NCBI RefSeq assembly: GCF_900114615.1
Contig: NZ_FOTS01000004.1
Location: forward strand, 62,001-126,000
Source of the DNA: Pelosinus propionicus DSM 13327
GTDB taxonomy: Bacteria > Bacillota > Negativicutes > DSM-13327
DNA: 64,000 bases
Direction of reading: 5' to 3'
A program made the position numbers and the translations under genes. Under the pieces are notes generated by a model. That model worked only from the letters and a program-made list of their open reading frames with translations. It made no database searches and was not told the origin of the DNA. The first letter of the stretch is position 1, and each line of letters opens with the position of its first letter. Below are positions 2,461-60,486 of the stretch, piece after piece.

Positions 2461-2500
2461 AATACTGCAATGTCTTATTATTCGTCTTATTTGCAGTATT
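2461..2500. repeat. Inverted repeat upstream of the PBP gene
   Basis: AATACTGCAA at 2461-2470 and TTGCAGTATT at 2491-2500 form perfect 10-bp arms around a 20-base AT-rich spacer, 26-65 bases upstream of the PBP start. It could be an operator or a 5' UTR stem-loop. No regulator can be assigned. Confidence 0.5.
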
Positions 2501-2535
2501 TCCCTGCAAGAAAAGGAGTTTATCACAACTGCTGC

Positions 2536-2573
2536 CAATGAAAAAAACACCTCTGCAGGTGTTTTTTTCATTG
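2536..2573 (-). terminator. Bidirectional-looking terminator after the amino-acid permease
   Basis: CAATGAAAAAAACACC and its complement ending in CATTG surround a TCTGCA loop, giving an A-rich/T-rich stem with a central GC pair block. It lies 14 bases after the permease stop on the minus strand. Confidence 0.75.
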
Positions 2574-2586
2574 CAAGGAGATCCAA

Positions 2587-3981
2587 CTATTGCTGAAGAG
2601 ATTTTCTCTCTCCATTGCCTTTATGCATGCCCGTTGCATAATACGAAGCAATGATCAAAGCAAACCAGATCGGTGCGATGTATAATGCAACACGAGTCTC
2701 AGGATTAAAAAACATAGCGATAGCAACGAATGCTAGAAAAGCTAAGCTGATCCAATTTGATACAGGTGAAAAAGGCATCGGATATTTAATTTTTGCAATT
2801 TGTTCAGGTGATAAACTATCGCGATACTTCAGTTGTATCAGCAAAATAATTGCCCATATCCAAAGGGCACCAAAAGTTGCAACACTGGTGACATACACAA
2901 ACACTTGGGCAGGAACCAGATAATTTAGCACTACGCCAATCAATAAGAAACCTGATGAAACCAAAATTCCTTTTACAGGAACATGACGATCATTTAATTT
3001 GCTAAACATTGTTGGTGCTTTACCTTGCAATGATAAATTGTAAAGCATCCTCCCTGTACTAAACAATCCACTATTACAAGAAGATAAAGCCGCTGTCAGT
3101 ACTACGAAATTGATAATACCAGCTGCAGCTCTTACTCCAAGCTTATTGAAAGTCAATACAAACGGACTGCCTATTGTACCAATTTGGTTCCAAGGATATA
3201 ACGACATGATGATCGTTAAAGAACCAACATAAAAGATGAGAATACGCCAAAAGACTTTATCAATCGCAGCTGGCAAGGACTTCTCAGGATTCTTTGCTTC
3301 ACCTGCTGTAACACCAATCAATTCAATGCCTAAGTAAGAAAACATTACCATAGTGCTTGCCATAATCATACCTTCTATACCATGAGGGAAAAAACCACCA
3401 TTAGACCAGAGGTTGGAAATGCCGATTGCCACGCCATGATTGGCAACACCGAAAGCAATCATAGCCGATCCAGCTACAATCATCGCTAAAATCGTTACTA
3501 CTTTAATCAAGGCAAACCAAAACTCAAACTCACCGAAGGCACGAACACTGGTTAAGTTAACAGCTGACATTAAAACTAACGCACATAAGGCAGGAATCCA
3601 CTGGGGCACTTCTGGCACCCAAAAGGAAAAATATACACCAACTGCCGTAATCTCTGCCATACATGTAACAACCCACATAAACCAATACGTCCACCCTGTA
3701 ATATAGCCTGTAAGAGGTCCTAAGAAAATATTAGAATGAGCACTAAAGGTACCGGAAACGGGGTATTCCACTGTTACTTCACCTAGCGCCCGCATAATAT
3801 AGAACATAATAATACCAGCCAGAAAGTATACAAGTATTAATGCCGGCCCCGCAGCTTTTATTGCAGCGCCAGCCCCAAGAAATAATCCTACACCAATCGC
3901 TCCACCTAATGCAATCAACTGAATATGACGTTCCTCTAATCCCCGGTGCAGATCTTCCTGCAATGCATTATTTTTTTCCAC
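2587..3981 (-). CDS. Amino-acid permease, APC superfamily (AAT/GABA-permease type)
   Basis: A polytopic inner-membrane amino-acid:proton symporter of 464 residues with about 12 hydrophobic segments. The N-terminus has the family signature ALGGAIGVGLFLGAG near residues 25-39, followed by the RALGEVTVEYP loop after TM2. Translation starts at GTG 3981 behind a GGGGG site. The gene lies downstream of alanine dehydrogenase on the same strand, separated by a hairpin. Alanine or another small neutral amino acid is therefore a reasonable substrate guess, but substrate specificity cannot be read from sequence in this family. Confidence 0.85.
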   Translation of the reverse strand: MEKNNALQEDLHRGLEERHIQLIALGGAIGVGLFLGAGAAIKAAGPALILVYFLAGIIMFYIMRALGEVTVEYPVSGTFSAHSNIFLGPLTGYITGWTYWFMWVVTCMAEITAVGVYFSFWVPEVPQWIPALCALVLMSAVNLTSVRAFGEFEFWFALIKVVTILAMIVAGSAMIAFGVANHGVAIGISNLWSNGGFFPHGIEGMIMASTMVMFSYLGIELIGVTAGEAKNPEKSLPAAIDKVFWRILIFYVGSLTIIMSLYPWNQIGTIGSPFVLTFNKLGVRAAAGIINFVVLTAALSSCNSGLFSTGRMLYNLSLQGKAPTMFSKLNDRHVPVKGILVSSGFLLIGVVLNYLVPAQVFVYVTSVATFGALWIWAIILLIQLKYRDSLSPEQIAKIKYPMPFSPVSNWISLAFLAFVAIAMFFNPETRVALYIAPIWFALIIASYYATGMHKGNGERKSLQQ

Positions 3982-51066: not shown

Positions 51067-52455
51067 CTATTTATCTAACTCATCAAGAACACCAAACTCT
51101 TCCTCAAAGGGACGAATATTCTTATTTCCCCAAATATAATAATATACAATGGCTACCCCATAAACAGCTAACACCCATGGTACTACTTCACTAGAAGCAT
51201 AGAACAAACTAACGAGACAAAAAATCGCAATCAGAAAACTAATCAGGGGGACTACTGGATAGGAAACCCTAAAAGGTCTTTTAAGAGCTGGCTCTTTCAC
51301 CCTTAAAACAAATAAACTTACTAAACTGATTAAATACATCGCAACGGAACCAAACACCGCAATGGTAATGACCACATTTGTAAGCCCTGTCAATGCGGCT
51401 CCCAATCCTATAATGCCAGGAACGATAAGCGCCCATACCGGTGTATGATGCTTAGGATCAACATATGCTAAAAATTTTGGCAGATACCCAGTACGAGCCA
51501 TGGCATAGGTCTGGCGGGAATAGCCCACAATGATGCCATGCAGAGAAGCAATCAGGCCAAATAATCCAATGAAGTTCATCAACATGGCACTGAAGGATCC
51601 CTCGCCATAAACAGAACTTAACGCTAAAGGAAGCGGAAAATCAACAGAGTCAATTAACTTTACATCCGTAATCCCCGCAGTAAGGAATAACGTGAGAAAT
51701 GCCATGATCATCAACGTTGCCATACCACTTAGAAAGCCAATGGAAATGTCTTTTTGGGGATTGACCATTTCTTCTGCACTCATCGCACCGCCTTCAATGG
51801 CTAAGTAGAACCAAATAGCAAATGGTACAGCAGCCATGACACCGCTAAAACCATTGGGCAAAAGAGGTTCCGCCATAACCCGGGACAATTCAAAATGAGG
51901 CAATGCCAAGCCCCAATAGATCACCAGACCAATCAAAGCAACAATCGTAACAATTAGTTCAAAGGTAGCAGATACCTTCATCCCCCAATAATTGATAAAA
52001 ATGAATAATAAGAAGGCGACTACCGTTGCCGTCATAATCTCAATGCCTGGAAACATGTTGTGAATGTAGCCGCCTACTGCCAAAGCAATGGCAGGTGGAG
52101 CAAATACAAATTCAATCAAGCAGCTCACACCATTCATATATCCCCAAAATTTTCCTAATGCACGCCGGGCATAAGCAGAAGGTCCGCCGGCATGAGGAAT
52201 TGCTGTCGCCAGCTCCGAATAGGATAAGATAAATGTGACATAAAAAATTGTCACCGGTATTAACGCCAAAGCAAGACCCATGACCCCGCCTACAGCAAAA
52301 CCATAACTCCAACCAAAATAATTACCTGATATAACAAGCCCAACCGCCAATGCCCATAAATGGATTGGCTTTAACACGCGAGAAAGATTTGCGCGATCAC
52401 CATCTTTCTTATGCTGAATAACCGGATTGACTGTTTCTACCCTACTGCTTTCCAT
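51067..52455 (-). CDS. eat: Ethanolamine permease (APC family)
   Basis: A 462-residue, 12-segment APC transporter with the ethanolamine-permease pattern GLVISGNYFGWSYGFAVGG in TM1 and IPHAGGPSAYARRALG after TM2. It imports ethanolamine for EutBC. ATG 52455 follows GGAGGAGG. Its leader holds an ANTAR-type antiterminator and terminator. Here it replaces EutH, and no shell or aldehyde dehydrogenase genes are in the cluster, so acetaldehyde must be handled elsewhere. Confidence 0.92.
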   Translation of the reverse strand: MESSRVETVNPVIQHKKDGDRANLSRVLKPIHLWALAVGLVISGNYFGWSYGFAVGGVMGLALALIPVTIFYVTFILSYSELATAIPHAGGPSAYARRALGKFWGYMNGVSCLIEFVFAPPAIALAVGGYIHNMFPGIEIMTATVVAFLLFIFINYWGMKVSATFELIVTIVALIGLVIYWGLALPHFELSRVMAEPLLPNGFSGVMAAVPFAIWFYLAIEGGAMSAEEMVNPQKDISIGFLSGMATLMIMAFLTLFLTAGITDVKLIDSVDFPLPLALSSVYGEGSFSAMLMNFIGLFGLIASLHGIIVGYSRQTYAMARTGYLPKFLAYVDPKHHTPVWALIVPGIIGLGAALTGLTNVVITIAVFGSVAMYLISLVSLFVLRVKEPALKRPFRVSYPVVPLISFLIAIFCLVSLFYASSEVVPWVLAVYGVAIVYYYIWGNKNIRPFEEEFGVLDELDK

Positions 52456-52487
52456 ACCTATTTCCTCCTCCGTAATGTGTCAGGTCA

Positions 52488-52536
52488 AAATAAAAGCCTA
52501 ATACAACCTTCTTTTCTAAGAAGAATCATATTAGGC
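52488..52536 (-). terminator. Leader terminator before eat
   Basis: GCCTAATA pairs with TATTAGGC, and an inner CTTCTT pairs with AAGAAGG; on the minus strand the tail reads TTTTATTTT. The 5' arm is shared with the antiterminator hairpin, so the two are mutually exclusive. Confidence 0.85.
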
Positions 52537-52550
52537 GACGTTGCCTGATA
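52529..52550 (-). promoter_or_regulatory. ANTAR (EutV) antiterminator hairpin in the eat leader
   Basis: On the minus strand AGGC-AACGTC-GCCT forms a hairpin with a six-base loop that has A1 and G4, the ANTAR-recognition signature, extended by TAT/ATA beyond one mismatch. Its 3' arm is the 5' arm of the eat leader terminator. An upstream hairpin ACT-AATCGT-AGT (52567-52578) may be the partner P1 stem but lacks G4. Confidence 0.75.
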
Positions 52551-52576
52551 TTAAGTTAATAAGACGACTACGATTA

Positions 52577-52615
52577 GTGAGAGCCGTTAATCCACGAAGG
52601 CTACCCCCTCCTCAC
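52577..52615 (-). repeat. Extra stem-loop in the eat leader
   Basis: On the minus strand GTGAG (52615-52611) pairs with CTCAC (52581-52577) around an inner AGCC/GGCT helix. It lies between the upstream terminator and the antiterminator. Its role is unknown. Confidence 0.5.
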
Positions 52616-52621
52616 TGTAAC

Positions 52622-52678
52622 AAAAAAATAAGCGCTTAATAAAAATGTTAAATGAGTTTAACATTTTTATTAAGCGCT
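52622..52678 (-). terminator. Very stable terminator after eutV
   Basis: Perfect 22-bp arms (52631-52652 and 52657-52678) with a TGAG loop and a T7 tail on the minus strand. It closes the eutWV transcript. A hairpin AGC-AATAGC-GCT just upstream shares its 5' arm, so it might also be under EutV control. The stretch 52679-52780 is AT-rich with no clear promoter. Confidence 0.9.
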
Positions 52679-52780
52679 ATTGCTACAATATTCCTTTTTG
52701 AAAAAATTCTTTAATCTTTGGTTTTATATTATTCGCCCTAATCAGAAATAGTCCTGCAAAAACAAAAAGTTTTTATTTTT

Positions 52781-53353
52781 TTATTTTTTTATTTTTTCAA
52801 TAATCCTTTGGGCGATTTGAGCAGGAGTCGTCTGCCGCTGCATGGATTCCTGCAATAAGCGTTTATGAGCCTCTCCAGCAGAAATACCCAAACGATCTTG
52901 GATGATGGACCGCGCTTGACTGATTAATTTTTGATTTTTTAAGTTTTCTTTCGTTTTGTCCAGTTCTTGATGCGTACTATACATGTCTTTCCAACGAGCA
53001 TATGCAATCTGCACCGCAGCAATGAGATTCTTCTCTGAGACCGGTTTAACCACATAACCATATACATGTACGCTTTCTGCCCGTTGCAGCATCCGGGGCT
53101 GACTATGAGCCGTTACCATGACAACTGGTATATTTAAACTATACATGCATTGTGCCACTTCCAAACCGCTTATTCCTGGCATCATAATATCCATAATGAC
53201 CAAATCCGGTACATTCTCTTTGACTAACCGTACTGCCTGCTCCCCATTACCGCATTCTGCGCGCACCCTGTGACCAGCCTTCTCCAGCATTTCTCTCATA
53301 TCCGCCCGTATTAATACTTCATCCTCTACCAATAAAATTGATAAGGGTTTCAT
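52781..53353 (-). CDS. eutV: EutV-like response regulator with ANTAR RNA-binding domain
   Basis: A 190-residue protein: receiver domain (about 1-120) with phospho-acceptor Asp55 in VIMDIMMPG and the conserved Lys in YVVKPVS, a short coiled linker, and an ANTAR domain (about 128-188) with RSIIQDRLGISAGEAHKRLL. EutV-type regulators bind paired hairpins in nascent RNA and prevent termination when phosphorylated by EutW. The start ATGA overlaps the eutW stop. AAGGAGG precedes it. Confidence 0.93.
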   Translation of the reverse strand: MKPLSILLVEDEVLIRADMREMLEKAGHRVRAECGNGEQAVRLVKENVPDLVIMDIMMPGISGLEVAQCMYSLNIPVVMVTAHSQPRMLQRAESVHVYGYVVKPVSEKNLIAAVQIAYARWKDMYSTHQELDKTKENLKNQKLISQARSIIQDRLGISAGEAHKRLLQESMQRQTTPAQIAQRIIEKIKK

Positions 53354-54792
53354 CCTGTTTCCTCCTTTTTATGCACTGGGAATGAAATGTTAGCAACTAC
53401 GGATTGACCACAATTCTCGAATTGAAAGGTGCCTCCCAATTGTTCACAAATAAGCAGCTTCACGATGTATAAACCAAGCGTCCCCCCCTTGCTTATCGCA
53501 GCATAATCCCATAACCTGCAGCCGCTGTCTCTCACCTCAACATTGATATTGGCATCAGACTCTCTCACAATTATACTGATTTCACCATGAGCATCCGCCT
53601 TAATACCATGCTCCAAACTATTTGCAACTAGCTCATTCAGCACTAATGCTACTGGCACCGCTTGGCTGGCATGAATCAGGACAGCCTGCCCCTGCACCAT
53701 TGTTTTTACCTTCTGCTCCGGTAAAATATAACTTTGGACAACCTGCTCTAGGATGTACTCTGCCAAATCATGCAAATTGACAAGATCACGATATTGATAG
53801 GTAAAAATCTCATATACCTTGGCAATGGATAATATCCGATTAATCGTCGCGGTAAACTCCCGCCGCACAGCTTTCCATTTTGAACGGCGCATTTGCAGGC
53901 GCAATAAGGAAATTACATTTTGCAGTGTATTTTTGACCCGATGGTTAATTTCTTGAATAATAATATTTTGCATACCTAGCTGACGTTCTTTTTGTCGCAA
54001 CTCTGTAACGTCTTGAAAGGATAGTACACAGCCGTTAAACTCTCCCCCTGTTAACAGCGGATGAGCTTGAAAAAGATAGCTTGCATTGTCAAACTCATAA
54101 TTCCTGGGATTCTTTAACCCCTCCATCATTTCTGGAAGAGACACAAAAGATAACAATAGCATAAGATTGCCATCTAGTGTATCCCCTTCATATAAACTCT
54201 TGGAAATGCACATAGCCTGCTTATTGGCGTATACAATCTTTCCCTTATCATTCAAGATGAAAACACCATTACCAAGCCACTCCTCCCAGCCATATCCTGT
54301 AACTCGTAAAGACATTAACGTATGGCTTAAGTGCTCTGCTGTTTGGCTCAGTAATTGAACCTGCTGTTCCTGGCGAATTTCTTTGGAAATATCCTTTTCC
54401 ATGATTAAAACACCAATCACTTGGCCATTATCATTCGTTAAAGGAACTACGGTTTGAGCAATTGGTACTCCCTCTTGGCTCACACCGCGGATATTATAAA
54501 AACTTTGCCCCGTTGAAAAGGCCTGATATACAGCTGGCTCACACGCAGCATAGGCCAATTCACCTACTACGCTGTTACGATATAACGATGGCGAATTGGG
54601 GGAGCTTGCCCATGCCAAAACAATTGCATCTTCTTGATTCACCGTCAAAGCATCAATAAAAATATCCGTACCCGTTAATGTGGCAATCACAGGCAGCTGA
54701 TTTACCATATTCTCTAGAATCATAATATCAGGTATCATTAGATCCGTATGTGCTAAGCACAAATCCCGGATGGAATGCTCTGTTTCTGCCAT
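53350..54792 (-). CDS. eutW: EutW-like soluble sensor histidine kinase
   Basis: A 480-residue cytoplasmic kinase: an N-terminal GAF-like/Pdtas-type sensor (about 1-140), a PAS domain (about 165-270), a HisKA_2 box EINHRVKNTLQNVISLL with His284, and an HATPase domain with LNELVANSLEHG. In enterococci and listeriae EutW senses ethanolamine and phosphorylates EutV; the same arrangement and neighbours are seen here. ATG 54792 follows GGAGG. Its own leader has an ANTAR-type antiterminator, which implies positive autoregulation. Confidence 0.9.
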   Translation of the reverse strand: MAETEHSIRDLCLAHTDLMIPDIMILENMVNQLPVIATLTGTDIFIDALTVNQEDAIVLAWASSPNSPSLYRNSVVGELAYAACEPAVYQAFSTGQSFYNIRGVSQEGVPIAQTVVPLTNDNGQVIGVLIMEKDISKEIRQEQQVQLLSQTAEHLSHTLMSLRVTGYGWEEWLGNGVFILNDKGKIVYANKQAMCISKSLYEGDTLDGNLMLLLSFVSLPEMMEGLKNPRNYEFDNASYLFQAHPLLTGGEFNGCVLSFQDVTELRQKERQLGMQNIIIQEINHRVKNTLQNVISLLRLQMRRSKWKAVRREFTATINRILSIAKVYEIFTYQYRDLVNLHDLAEYILEQVVQSYILPEQKVKTMVQGQAVLIHASQAVPVALVLNELVANSLEHGIKADAHGEISIIVRESDANINVEVRDSGCRLWDYAAISKGGTLGLYIVKLLICEQLGGTFQFENCGQSVVANISFPVHKKEETG

Positions 54793-54833
54793 AAAAAGAC
54801 CTCCGGCTTAAATTGCAATAGCCAAAATAATAT

Positions 54834-54882
54834 AAAAAAAGCCTATTATAATCATTCGTTCTTACCAATGATTATAATAGGC
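54834..54882 (-). terminator. Leader terminator before eutWV
   Basis: Perfect 16-bp arms (GCCTATTATAATCATT and its complement; 54841-54856 and 54867-54882) with a ten-base loop and a T7 tail on the minus strand, 42 bases before the eutW start. Confidence 0.9.
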
Positions 54883-54893
54883 TCCATTGCCTA
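54878..54893 (-). promoter_or_regulatory. ANTAR (EutV) antiterminator hairpin in the eutWV leader
   Basis: On the minus strand TAGGC-AATGGA-GCCTA forms a perfect 5-bp stem with a six-base loop carrying A1 and G4. The 3' arm is the start of the terminator's 5' arm. This is the ANTAR P2 architecture. A P1 stem upstream is not clear, although an AACGCA element occurs just before. Confidence 0.78.
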
Positions 54894-54956
54894 ATTGCGT
54901 TGCTCACTTTGATTTTCTTTTTTTACTATCCACTCACTTATTTACCATCCGATTAT

Positions 54957-54983
54957 AAAATTCCTGCAAAGTCATAGACTTTG
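54957..54983 (-). terminator. Weak terminator after the rtcB-prfH-47aa operon
   Basis: CAAAGTC (54977-54983, minus strand) pairs with GACTTTG across three bases, with a T-rich stretch a few bases on. It directly follows the 47-aa gene stop. Confidence 0.45.
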
Positions 54984-54984
54984 T

Positions 54985-55128
54985 TTATTTTTTTATACGA
55001 TCTAGCTCTACAGTGACCTTAATGGCTGTGTTCTGAGGATCTTCCAGCATTCTCAGCGTTTCACTGAGCTCTTCAAAGAAACAGGAAAAGAGGGGATGAC
55101 AGCCCTTACTTCCTGCTTCTTCATACAT
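54985..55128 (-). CDS. 47-aa protein coupled to prfH
   Basis: ATG 55128 starts four bases after the prfH stop, with its GAGGG site overlapping that stop, and the frame runs 47 codons to TAA. The product (MYEEAGSKGCHPLFS ... TVELDRIKK) has two cysteines, an amphipathic helix region (FFEELSETLRMLED) and a charged end. I know no family. Position as third gene of an rtcB-prfH operon suggests a role with them; that is inference. Confidence 0.7.
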   Translation of the reverse strand: MYEEAGSKGCHPLFSCFFEELSETLRMLEDPQNTAIKVTVELDRIKK

Positions 55129-55132
55129 ACGT

Positions 55133-55771
55133 TTAGCCCTCTAATCGATTACTATACTTCAATTTAAAGCTTTCTCCTTCATAAATCCTGGTAGGATTTC
55201 CTCGCGTAAGAGTATTATGCTGACTCCACATCAACCTTTTATTATCAAGAGATTGTTCGGCATTCCTTGTATTAAGATATTGAAACAAACGGGCAAGAGC
55301 TAGTTTCTTGTTCATGGATTGGGATCTCTCCTCACTTGCAATTACCGTCAGACCTGTTGGTACATGCGTCGCGCGTACTGCCGTTTCTACTTTATTGACA
55401 TTCTGCCCACCAGGACCGGAGCTTCTCATAAACGCAATGACCACATCATTTTCTGAAAAATTCACTTTATCCTGTTCATGAAATACCTCCACATCAATAA
55501 ACCAATTTTTCCGTTTATGCTTTGGTCGATATGGACTTTTGCAAATCCAACATATCGTTCCCTGCATGTTCTGTACAGCTTCCACTATCTTATCACCCTT
55601 TAATGATAACAATACTGACTTAAAGCTTTCTGAATAGTTTCCAGGAATGGCACTCACTACTTCAGCACTGATACCTTTGCTGCTCCACTCTTCTTTTATT
55701 GTTTTAAGAAAAAGACCTACCGCTAGCGAACATTCGTCTGGTCCTTTTCCTGAACTAATTTGAACCCACAT
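55133..55771 (-). CDS. prfH: PrfH, release-factor-like peptidyl-tRNA hydrolase
   Basis: A 212-residue class I release-factor homologue with the catalytic loop SSGPGGQNVNKVET (GGQ at 121-123) and the following basic SQSMNKKLALARL helix. It lacks the stop-codon recognition domain of RF1/RF2. PrfH is known to release nascent chains from ribosomes whose 16S rRNA was cut in the decoding centre, after which its partner RtcB reseals the RNA. The gene lies 11 bases after rtcB. ATG 55771 follows TAGGAGG. Confidence 0.92.
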   Translation of the reverse strand: MWVQISSGKGPDECSLAVGLFLKTIKEEWSSKGISAEVVSAIPGNYSESFKSVLLSLKGDKIVEAVQNMQGTICWICKSPYRPKHKRKNWFIDVEVFHEQDKVNFSENDVVIAFMRSSGPGGQNVNKVETAVRATHVPTGLTVIASEERSQSMNKKLALARLFQYLNTRNAEQSLDNKRLMWSQHNTLTRGNPTRIYEGESFKLKYSNRLEG

Positions 55772-55782
55772 GTTTATTCCTC

Positions 55783-56886
55783 CTACCCTTTATATGTTAA
55801 AACAGGTTTTAATGTTGCGATCACTTTTACCAGTCCGGCATCTACAAGGTCTTGAATAATGATATCAATATTCTTATACGCTTCTGGTGCTTCTTCAAAG
55901 AGAAGCTTATTATTACTACAAATAACCTTGCCTTTAAATTTAGTCTGTTTAATGGTTTCCTTTGTATACTTGTTTTCAAGCTGTCCTTTACACATACTGC
56001 GTTCCCACTTTCTCCCTGCTCCATGGGCAAGAGAATATCCAGCTATTGCAGTATCCTCTCCTGGAATAACGAGATAGGTTAAGGTCCCCCTAGAACCAGG
56101 AATTGCAATAGCCCCGGAATCTCCAGGCGCCGCACCTTTACGATGAACATATAAGTTTTTTTCTCCTACTACTTTCGCCGTTATGCTGTTGTGGACACTA
56201 TCGATGATTTTTGTGGTGTCAGTTTGCATCTGTAATGCTTTGAGTAAGCGGTAACCAATCAATTCTCTATTCAGCATAGCCCAATTAACAGCTGCATCGT
56301 GCTTTATTAAATATTGCTTAGCAACCTCCGTATTTTTTGCTAGTCCGCTTTGCGCCTGGTGGTCATGAATAAATTCATCCAATATGGCTTGACCATACCC
56401 TCTTGAGCCACTGTGCACTAGAAGCATGATATGATTCTTGCTCAGTCCCAGCTTCTCGAATTCTGCAGTATCAAGTATCGTTGCAACTTCCTGAATCTCG
56501 GCAAAGTGATTTCCCCCACCGATGGTTCCTAAGCTTGCATGAAACTGAAAATCACTAAAATCATGATCATTTCCCTCAGACATGTCAATTTGAGAAAGTT
56601 CTTCTAGCTCCTCTAGCTTCCTCTCCCATCTGTCTAATTTCATTTTCTTTTTTTCAATAGCTGTCATAAACAGGCTTACCCCACAGCCGATATCATTACC
56701 AATTAGGTGCGGATAAATAATACTTTCTGTGATAAACGCAGCACCTACAGGAGTTTTCCCCGGATGCAGATCAGGCAGCCCAACGATTTTCTCAATCCCA
56801 GGTAAAGCAGCAATTTGGGTAAGCTGATCTACGGCTGCACTTTCCAGCCAATTCTTTTCTGATGAAATAATTGTTATTTTATTCAA
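55783..56886 (-). CDS. rtcB: RNA ligase RtcB (PrfH-associated type)
   Basis: RtcB joins 2',3'-cyclic phosphate or 3'-phosphate ends to 5'-OH ends using GTP and Mn. The 367-residue protein has the metal and nucleotide motifs GNDIGCGVSLF (Asp65, Cys68), GGGNHFAEI (His127), VHSGSRGYG, and AHGAGR, whose His288 is the guanylylated residue. It is shorter than the tRNA-repair RtcB (about 408 residues), as in the RtcB2 group linked to PrfH. The likely start is TTG 56886, 13 bases after GGAG. Leader hairpins lie upstream. Confidence 0.92.
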   Translation of the reverse strand: MNKITIISSEKNWLESAAVDQLTQIAALPGIEKIVGLPDLHPGKTPVGAAFITESIIYPHLIGNDIGCGVSLFMTAIEKKKMKLDRWERKLEELEELSQIDMSEGNDHDFSDFQFHASLGTIGGGNHFAEIQEVATILDTAEFEKLGLSKNHIMLLVHSGSRGYGQAILDEFIHDHQAQSGLAKNTEVAKQYLIKHDAAVNWAMLNRELIGYRLLKALQMQTDTTKIIDSVHNSITAKVVGEKNLYVHRKGAAPGDSGAIAIPGSRGTLTYLVIPGEDTAIAGYSLAHGAGRKWERSMCKGQLENKYTKETIKQTKFKGKVICSNNKLLFEEAPEAYKNIDIIIQDLVDAGLVKVIATLKPVLTYKG

Positions 56887-56931
56887 AATTTATTTTTTCT
56901 CCTTTGATTTCTTAAACCCTTAAATGAGCAT

Positions 56932-57031
56932 AAAAATACCGTGGATTAGTAACCACGGTTCAAATGTAAGGGCAAATTTCCTACCCTTAAGACTAAAATT
57001 AGCAATAAAAAATACACGATAACACATCGTG
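56932..57031 (-). promoter_or_regulatory. Tandem terminator hairpins in the rtcB leader
   Basis: Two intrinsic-terminator shapes lie upstream of rtcB on its own strand: CACGAT/ATCGTG (57015-57031) with a TATTTTTTATT tail, and ACCGTGG/CCACGGT (56938-56959) with an ATTTTT tail, only 46 bases before the start codon. A weaker AAGGG/CCCTT stem (56968-56988) lies between. This layout suggests transcription attenuation of the operon. The remaining stretch 57032-57332 shows no gene or clear promoter. Confidence 0.6.
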
Positions 57032-57332
57032 CATACCTGTTATAGCTAAATTCATTTACTTATTTCAGGTGACGGTTACTTCACAGCTAGTCAGACACAA
57101 CTAATAAAGGGTCAAGAATCCCCACTCTCGTTGCCTCTGATCCTATATTTAGTTATAAACCATTTACCTCAAAAGATATTCTAATAATCATAACTAACAC
57201 GTCCTTTCACCATACTGCCTATATATTGGTAAATCATAATCAAATGTATTATAGTTCAAATATTTTTCCATGTCAATATTTTTAAAAAAGACGCAGGAAC
57301 GATAGAAGATATAAAATATAGCCGTATTTTCA

Positions 57333-57662
57333 ATGGTAGGTATGCTGCAAGTAGGTTTTGGGGTATCAATAATAGAGGCTTCACCCCTACAGAATAATTC
57401 AGCATCTGTTTCACAACAATCCAATGACTCAAATCGGCGTCAAAACCGTCCTTGCCTGGATAGAAATAGTGATAGAGAGCAACAACGGTATGATCTGGAA
57501 CAAGCTCGACAAGGTCGGGAACGAATAGAGAATGAAAGACATGAAATTGAAATCAAACGACATCCAGATGAAGGCAGACGCGACTGGAAAGAACGTCAAA
57601 AAAAAGAAAATGAACGCCATGAAGAAAACATGAGGCGGATTGCCAACTTCATTCTTGGTTAG
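57333..57662 (+). pseudogene. Decayed paralogue of the charged secreted protein
   Basis: The open frame of 109 codons matches the protein at 11007-11330: GFGVSIIEASP against GIGASVIEASP after the signal peptide, then the same ERHEIEIKRHP and WKERQKKENERHE repeats. The first part of the signal peptide is lost: codons just upstream read N-I-A-V-F-S in frame, matching I-A-I-Y-S, but are preceded by TAA at 57312-57314, and no ribosome-binding site precedes ATG 57333. A terminator follows the frame, so the gene was once functional. Confidence 0.75.
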
Positions 57663-57667
57663 TCCAT

Positions 57668-57713
57668 ATAAGACCAGCCGTCGATCTTTAATTAGATAGA
57701 CGACTGGTCTTAT
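57668..57713 (+). terminator. Terminator after the decayed paralogue
   Basis: ATAAGACCAG, CGTC and ATCT pair with AGAT, GACG and CTGGTCTTAT, with one or two mismatches, just after the stop. Confidence 0.75.
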
Positions 57714-57839
57714 GTAAGATCTATTAAAAGTTTTGCATTATGCTTGTTAGCAACGTAAGATATACCAGCTCCATATTGACGTATATTTATCATGAATCAG
57801 GCCAAAACTTAAAAATAAACAACTCTTAGGGGGATTCAT

Positions 57840-58373
57840 ATGAGCAATCAGACATTACTGTGGACAAGTTTCGTAATCTCTTGGCTATCTGTCATTTTCA
57901 TAAAGAAAGAAAACCTTAAACGCTATATGCCTGTTGCATTATTGGGCGCACTACTGTCAACCATTGTCATAGAGACAGGCATTACTTTACATTGGTGGTC
58001 AACTAAGGAAACTGTCTTTCCATTTGTAAATATGCCGATATTTATTTATGGCTCTTTCCTTGTTGGTATTCTTTGGATCTTTACATTTAGTTATAAACGC
58101 TTTTGGCTGTTTCTTGCCACAAATGCATGTATTGATCTCATTCTCATCATCCCATTAGATAATTGGTTTGTCAGGCGGGGTATTTTAGAATTGTATAATA
58201 TAACTACCCTCCAAATGTTTCTGATGTCAATTGGACACGCCACCCTTTTATATTGCTATCAGCTTTGGCAGGAAGGCGAAGCCAGCCCGTTCAAAAGGCT
58301 GAATGTAAATCTATCACCTAATGTACAGTCTGCTGCCAGCAAGCCTCTTAGAGATGATAACGAAGAAGATTAA
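57840..58373 (+). CDS. Multi-pass membrane protein of unknown function
   Basis: A 177-residue protein with about five hydrophobic segments, a positively charged loop (IKKENLKRY) and a polar C-terminal tail (about 145-177). It has conserved-looking ETGITLHWW and IPLDNWFVRRG elements. It resembles small membrane proteins of spore formers of the CBO0543 type, but I am not sure. ATG 57840 follows AGGGGG. Confidence 0.7.
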   Translation: MSNQTLLWTSFVISWLSVIFIKKENLKRYMPVALLGALLSTIVIETGITLHWWSTKETVFPFVNMPIFIYGSFLVGILWIFTFSYKRFWLFLATNACIDLILIIPLDNWFVRRGILELYNITTLQMFLMSIGHATLLYCYQLWQEGEASPFKRLNVNLSPNVQSAASKPLRDDNEED

Positions 58374-60321: not shown

Positions 60322-60486
60322 AATTGTCATGCCACTGGTTTTAACCAAAGTCATTTTACAAACTGCTTCAAACAATATCTAGAAGTTACGCCTGACAGCA
60401 TGCTAAAGGGTTTGAACGGTTATACCAAAAGAAGCAAGGAAGGAGGGATACTAGCCACCACTTCCTGCTTCTTTGAAGTAAACTAA
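60322..60486 (+). pseudogene. Remnant of an AraC-family regulator (C-terminal helix)
   Basis: From 60325 the plus strand encodes CHATGFNQSHFTNCFKQYL followed by EVTPDSML, which is the second recognition helix and end of an AraC DNA-binding domain. The frame has a TAG at 60319-60321 directly before it and no start codon; the preceding sequence gives only fragments. The stop is at 60484-60486. It is a truncated gene, probably the former regulator of a neighbour. Confidence 0.75.
60428..60474. terminator. Hairpin downstream of the PanE-like gene
   Basis: AAAGAAGCA and GGAAG pair with CTTCC and TGCTTCTTT across a longer loop, 32 bases past the panE-like stop on the minus strand. It overlaps the AraC remnant. 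Confidence 0.55.

Follow-up and report, generated by a model that had tools for sequence, protein, structure and literature searches.

A putative ribosome-monitoring attenuator ahead of the rtcB2-prfH rRNA-repair operon of Pelosinus propionicus DSM 13327

The rtcB2-prfH rRNA-repair operon of P. propionicus DSM 13327 is preceded by a leader of about 350 nt, which begins at a strong promoter and carries a short upstream open reading frame (uORF), followed by two intrinsic terminators, T1 and T2, just before rtcB2. With a probability of roughly 0.7, this leader would monitor ribosomes and act as an attenuator, the details of the RNA switch being a prediction. An initial annotation of the same DNA had proposed that the operon is controlled by termination in its leader, and this proposal is supported by the conservation of the uORF and of both terminators across distant Bacillota.

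The operon is encoded on the minus strand of the window, as the whole 64,000-nt stretch analysed here is called, in a genome of 5.4 Mb; unless noted otherwise, all features below are on this strand. The rtcB2 gene (55783–56886, TTG start) encodes an RtcB that scores 498.8 bits with NF007153/PRK09588 (cut-off 407) and 438 bits with TIGR03073 (cut-off 271.8). Release factor H is encoded by prfH (55133–55771), which follows directly downstream on the same strand after 11 nt and whose product scores 234.7 bits with TIGR03072 (cut-off 166.7). By these family models, both proteins are firmly placed, as a member of the PrfH-linked RtcB subfamily and as PrfH, respectively. Ribosomes cut by colicin E3 are rescued and religated by PrfH and RtcB2 (PMC9223846). 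No report on how the two proteins are switched on upon ribosome cutting was found in the searchable papers, and a conserved leader ORF would offer a directly testable sensor, also in laboratory E. coli. A genome of the same genus (G004) is colinear with the window on both flanks of the operon and lacks rtcB2-prfH. Further downstream (51067–54927), the window encodes a PdtaS/EutW-like histidine kinase, an ANTAR response regulator and a permease of the amino-acid/ethanolamine type; a strong hairpin with a U-tract before the kinase gene could be an ANTAR target. A near-perfect hairpin at 57665–57716 is located between a 109-aa frame (57333–57662) and a 177-aa frame (57840–58373), both on the plus strand, and gave just a microRNA-shape match under threshold in Rfam.

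The leader starts from a sigma-70 promoter that matches the consensus at 12/12 positions (TTGACA-17-TATAAT, 57248–57276) and is also present in the aligned leader of the sister species (G005). The uORF comprises 12 codons (MIIRISFEVNGL, 57153–57191), ends 266 nt upstream of rtcB2 and contains an SD-like GAGGTA at codons 8–9. Its Shine-Dalgarno (SD) sequence, AAAGGA (57202–57207), has a duplex energy of −8.9 kcal/mol and is part of a GAAAGGA that is conserved in the leader alignment A2. Promoter and uORF with SD are additional to the initial annotation, which had reported two terminator hairpins, the nearer one 46 bases before rtcB. Both hairpins are present: T1 (CACGATNNGTTATCGTG plus U-tract, 57034–57012), found by the terminator scan and by a T1 pattern search, and T2 (ACCGTGGTTACTAATCCACGGT plus U-tract, 56959–56938), found by the terminator scan. 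The distance from the U-tract of T2 to rtcB is indeed about 46 nt, with the stem ending 51 nt before the rtcB start. The pair is above chance, as the region after the uORF yields a terminator in about 1% of cases when shuffled. Between uORF and terminators, minimum free energy and centroid folds contain a stem-loop, P2 (57091–57140), which is followed by a conserved control segment, AGTAACCGTCACC (57068–57080). The latter could serve both as the 3′ arm of a putative stem, P1, and as an antiterminator. The proposed 5′ arm of P1, GGTGA (57207–57211), abuts the uORF SD and is complementary to TCACC (57072–57068), whereas AGTAACC of the control segment could pair with GGTTACT of T2.

Since the leader of the sister species is nearly identical to that of the window, more distant loci were needed, and 80 further loci were collected by scanning genome contigs with an RtcB2 alignment. 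The order promoter, SD, 12-codon ORF, T1, T2, rtcB2 is common to the other loci of the same subfamily in the class, with the leader ORFs MTVTINYEVISL, MLVMNHFKVNRI, MFAIFIFKVNRI and MLVIVNFAVNEI. The same leader is found in clostridia, namely Ruminiclostridium cellobioparum (MTAIINYEVLSL), Acetivibrio (MTTIIYEVFSL) and Pseudobacteroides (MTTINLEVLKI), and shorter versions occur in Hungatella, Clostridioides difficile, Tepidibacter and others. Eight long-type leaders keep the uORF start, GAGGTR and the TAA stop, and in their alignment the uORF length (11, 12 or 14 codons) varies by whole codons alone. The 400 nt upstream of rtcB2 were then scored for ATG uORFs of 7–16 codons, with loci of related genomes and shuffles as controls. 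At an SD duplex of ≤ −10 kcal/mol, 19/26 Bacillota rtcB2 loci possess such a uORF (24/26 at ≤ −8 kcal/mol), compared to a mean of 0.43 and a maximum of 3 in dinucleotide shuffles; among control genes in the same DNA, 0/165 reach −10 kcal/mol and 2/165 reach −8. At least one terminator follows the uORF in 20/27 leaders (shuffles: mean 0.44, maximum 3). When 381 genomes of the class were searched with the T1 pattern, all five matches fell in rtcB2 leaders; an RtcB of the PRK09588/TIGR03073 type is carried by 6/381 of these genomes. In distant lineages (myxobacteria, deltaproteobacteria, planctomycetes and others), uORFs show no clear excess (2/56 vs. 0.75 expected), and the leader is therefore not universal.

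Operons are commonly insulated by intrinsic terminators, and two hairpins in series might do no more than shield rtcB2-prfH from upstream transcription, with no conditional read-through. We regard this as quite unlikely: T1 and T2 are preceded by a perfect promoter and a uORF that belong to the operon itself, the minus strand near rtcB holds no equally good promoter, and the same order is conserved across RtcB2 proteins that are merely 50–60% identical. Another explanation, improbable to a lesser degree, is that the attenuator senses a ligand or a protein, be it a small molecule or RtcB2/PrfH in an autoregulatory circuit, and that the uORF is incidental. The strong structure of the leader (whole-leader folding z = −3.8) and the very high primary-sequence conservation of T1 and GTAACCGTCACC are in favour of this explanation, but the most widely shared leader element is the uORF, which persists even without a terminator or a common RNA structure, and an Rfam search of the leader returned no family at the gathering threshold. 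Two Rfam candidates for the identity of the leader, mir-4662 and rli56, were rejected with scores under their gathering thresholds. The conserved GTAACCGTCAC was also considered as a decoy of the 16S decoding-site strands; the resemblance was treated as coincidence, because other leaders lack the GTGAAG half.

Several variants were noted among the Bacillota leaders. A valine near the uORF end (20/27 leaders) is in the context G-GTG or G-GTA in 20/20 cases, an SD-like motif at which ribosomes might pause. A locus of the same phylum (G606) has a 24-codon uORF with a strong SD and, by eye, a terminator-like hairpin after it that was not counted by the scan. In the Clostridia MAG SKW257 (L049, ~2500–3000), an additional small gene of helix-turn-helix-like type lies between rtcB2 and a leader with the uORF MFVKIRISIEVLAP, T1 and T2. 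Five loci, C. difficile (L066) as well as L062, L070, L083 and L105, combine RtcB2 and a uORF leader, and no prfH was found in their fetched DNA, so that the leader appears to go with rtcB2 and not with prfH. At two prfH loci (L045 and L046), neither a leader uORF nor a terminator was seen by eye, and the adjoining RtcB starts unlike the RtcB2 type.

How uORF translation could be coupled to termination is suggested by a segment that is common to the long leaders, GTAACCGTCACCTG. Its 3′ part is complementary to CAGGTGA beside the uORF SD, which corresponds to P1. The arms are ATATTAGGC and GCCTAATAT in L040–L042 (duplex p ≤ 0.017 each) and CAGGTGA/TCACCTG in L053, and the pairing thus seems to be kept though the arm sequence changes between leaders. 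P1 is strong in L040–L042 and weak in the window, where it comprises 5 bp only and is not significant in a crude duplex test (p = 0.57). The T2 apex, GGTTAC, is matched by its complement GTAACC in the 5′ part of the segment, and in L040–L042 both sides change in step to CAACCA/TGGTTG. For this antiterminator-T2 match, the combined Fisher p is 0.002, with modest single-leader p-values, relatedness ignored and the hypothesis formed on the same sequences as tested; one leader, L054, does not fit. P1 and antiterminator draw on adjacent stretches of the segment. Such a layout suggests that the segment is freed by a ribosome at the uORF start. The following switch can be envisaged: As long as ribosomes translate and leave the uORF normally, AGTAACCGTCACC would be held by the leader-SD region in P1, T1 and T2 would form, and most transcripts would stop. 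A ribosome that initiates but fails to elongate, due to a drug or a cut decoding centre, would remain on the uORF start and block P1, and the freed segment could pair with the GGTTAC apex of T2 (and with GTTAT of T1). With both terminators blocked, the polymerase would read into rtcB2-prfH, and the operon product would rescue and religate such ribosomes, thereby closing the loop. By sequence, the signal could be either a stall at the start or a late stall, and either a drug or cut rRNA.

A different arrangement is found in six clostridial leaders without terminators, where the uORF end (GAGAGAAT) and the ribosome binding site (RBS) of rtcB2 (GGAGAGAAT) compete for the intervening ATTCTCTC. With other sequences, gammaproteobacterial leaders have this three-way topology of uORF, anti-RBS and RBS, too. 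For leaders of this kind, combined pairing tests that ignore relatedness gave a Fisher p of 2e-8 for uORF:anti-RBS and of 3e-6 for anti-RBS:RBS. From the topology, the operon is predicted to be ON without a ribosome on the uORF or with one that stalls early, and OFF once the uORF is translated to its end. The rtcB2-prfH operons of enterobacteria and other gammaproteobacteria have uORFs of their own, among them MTNPLSMTLCRPFQD in E. coli, MTTTNMNTLCGQSQK in Proteus, MQNTSTSFAGLVR on an IncC plasmid and MTITSTFFAGLIR in Colwellia. The common denominator, we infer, is that uORF translation is monitored and that early stalling switches the operon on. Stated most broadly, rtcB2(-prfH) operons of Bacillota and Gammaproteobacteria would be gated by leader ORFs of ~10–15 codons that detect ribosomes stuck at the ORF start, such that repair would be triggered by the very ribosomes that are cut in the decoding centre, with peptides and switches (terminators or RBS sequestration) varying by lineage under the same logic; this generalization is tentative, and we give it slightly less than even odds.

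Two observations concern the distribution of the gammaproteobacterial leaders. The 194-bp leader of E. coli (L135 1237–1430, E. coli CE10) is present in 5361/5426 complete genomes, and an rtcB2 match covering 80% of a Providencia query in only 1202/5426; the leader seems to outlive the operon. In K. pneumoniae (L142), rtcB2-prfH with its uORF lies beside sul1 on the conjugative IncC plasmid.

At the other end of the operon, the initial annotation had seen a third gene, a 47-codon frame (54985–55128) tightly coupled to prfH and possibly encoding a small adaptor, inhibitor or damage sensor. Its description of the junction is accurate: the ATG lies 4 bases past the prfH TAA, and AGAGGG just before the prfH stop is a plausible SD. 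As a gene, however, the frame does not stand out, and a true third gene is very improbable. The initial annotation itself had named a lack of conservation beside other rtcB-prfH pairs as evidence against the idea, and such a lack is what was found: when all fetched loci, 52 of them with prfH downstream of rtcB2, were searched by tblastn with the 47 residues, no homologue was returned, and apart from the frame itself the only matches were two pieces lying apart in the sister species. Neither Pfam nor NCBIfam contains a matching family, and among ten genomes of its family, the frame is whole only in the window's own genome. In the sister species, the two pieces are located on one contig. Codons 1–17 also follow prfH, with ATA in place of the start codon and an in-frame TGA that ends the frame, and codons 19–41 are found 3.2 kb further on, within a 154-codon frame whose sequence resembles a zinc-dependent alcohol dehydrogenase in its C-terminal part. 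The second half accordingly covers a remnant (55006–55080, codons 19–41) from the 3′ end of a gene resembling those of alcohol dehydrogenases, a tail that is matched in G004 as well. The first half (codons 3–18) overlies a 14-bp hairpin at 55075–55122 (−23.7 kcal/mol, z = −3.15; z = −4.0 in the sister species), which is repeated elsewhere: similar palindromes occur downstream of a panE-like gene (60429–60473) as well as in G004 and G005, and could represent a dispersed palindromic repeat or a shared terminator. The 47-codon frame is best read as a chance frame across a DNA rearrangement junction with no part in the operon, which removes one spurious small protein from consideration.

The arrangement of the leader resembles ribosome-mediated attenuators of the erm/cat type, in which a short leader ORF and mutually exclusive hairpins control the next gene; the genes controlled in the window repair ribosomes, however, and the sequences are presumably unrelated. 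The only described precedent that was found in the literature search is PA5471.1-armZ of P. aeruginosa. There, PA5471 (armZ), a member of the PRK09588 family, is co-transcribed with PA5470 (prfH) and induced by ribosome-targeting drugs via the 13-aa leader PA5471.1 and downstream terminators (PMC3516279; PMC12057347; PMC13041342), and a stop at codon 3 of PA5471.1 activates armZ (PMC13041342). Gene order is shared with the window, a PRK09588 RtcB followed by prfH with a short leader ORF upstream and terminators in between. Position and family agree as well: PA5471.1 lies ~250 bp upstream, and the uORF of the window stops 266 nt before rtcB2. The peptides differ, as Q3 and F4 of PA5471.1 (PMC13041342) have no counterpart in MIIRISFEVNGL, and P. 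aeruginosa ArmZ has been ascribed an anti-repressor role that targets the regulator of an efflux pump. Drug induction is described for P. aeruginosa and would be a prediction for the leader of the window. Of the two parts that the initial annotation had considered new to the system, the small protein falls away and termination control holds up, but attenuation of this gene family is not wholly new, because armZ-prfH of P. aeruginosa is controlled by the leader peptide PA5471.1.

For leaders of other rtcB2-prfH operons, no paper was found, although subscription papers were possibly missed by the search. A leader is not mentioned in the 2006 paper that defined the operon, nor is one reported for the operon of E. 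coli ATCC 25922 (PMC9223846), which protects against colicin E3 and has the same two genes in the same order. Sequenced E. coli copies resemble the window in having an upstream uORF with a strong SD (MTNPLSMTLCRPFQD), but they are without the T1/T2 pair, and their leader looks like RBS sequestration. E. coli K-12 has a truncated homologue, ykfJ, whose expression can be induced by 4-azaleucine, a compound that disturbs translation (PMC3516279). With the conserved leader ORFs described here, the antibiotic-response leader of P. aeruginosa ArmZ could be placed as one example within a broader mode of control of ribosome-repair operons.
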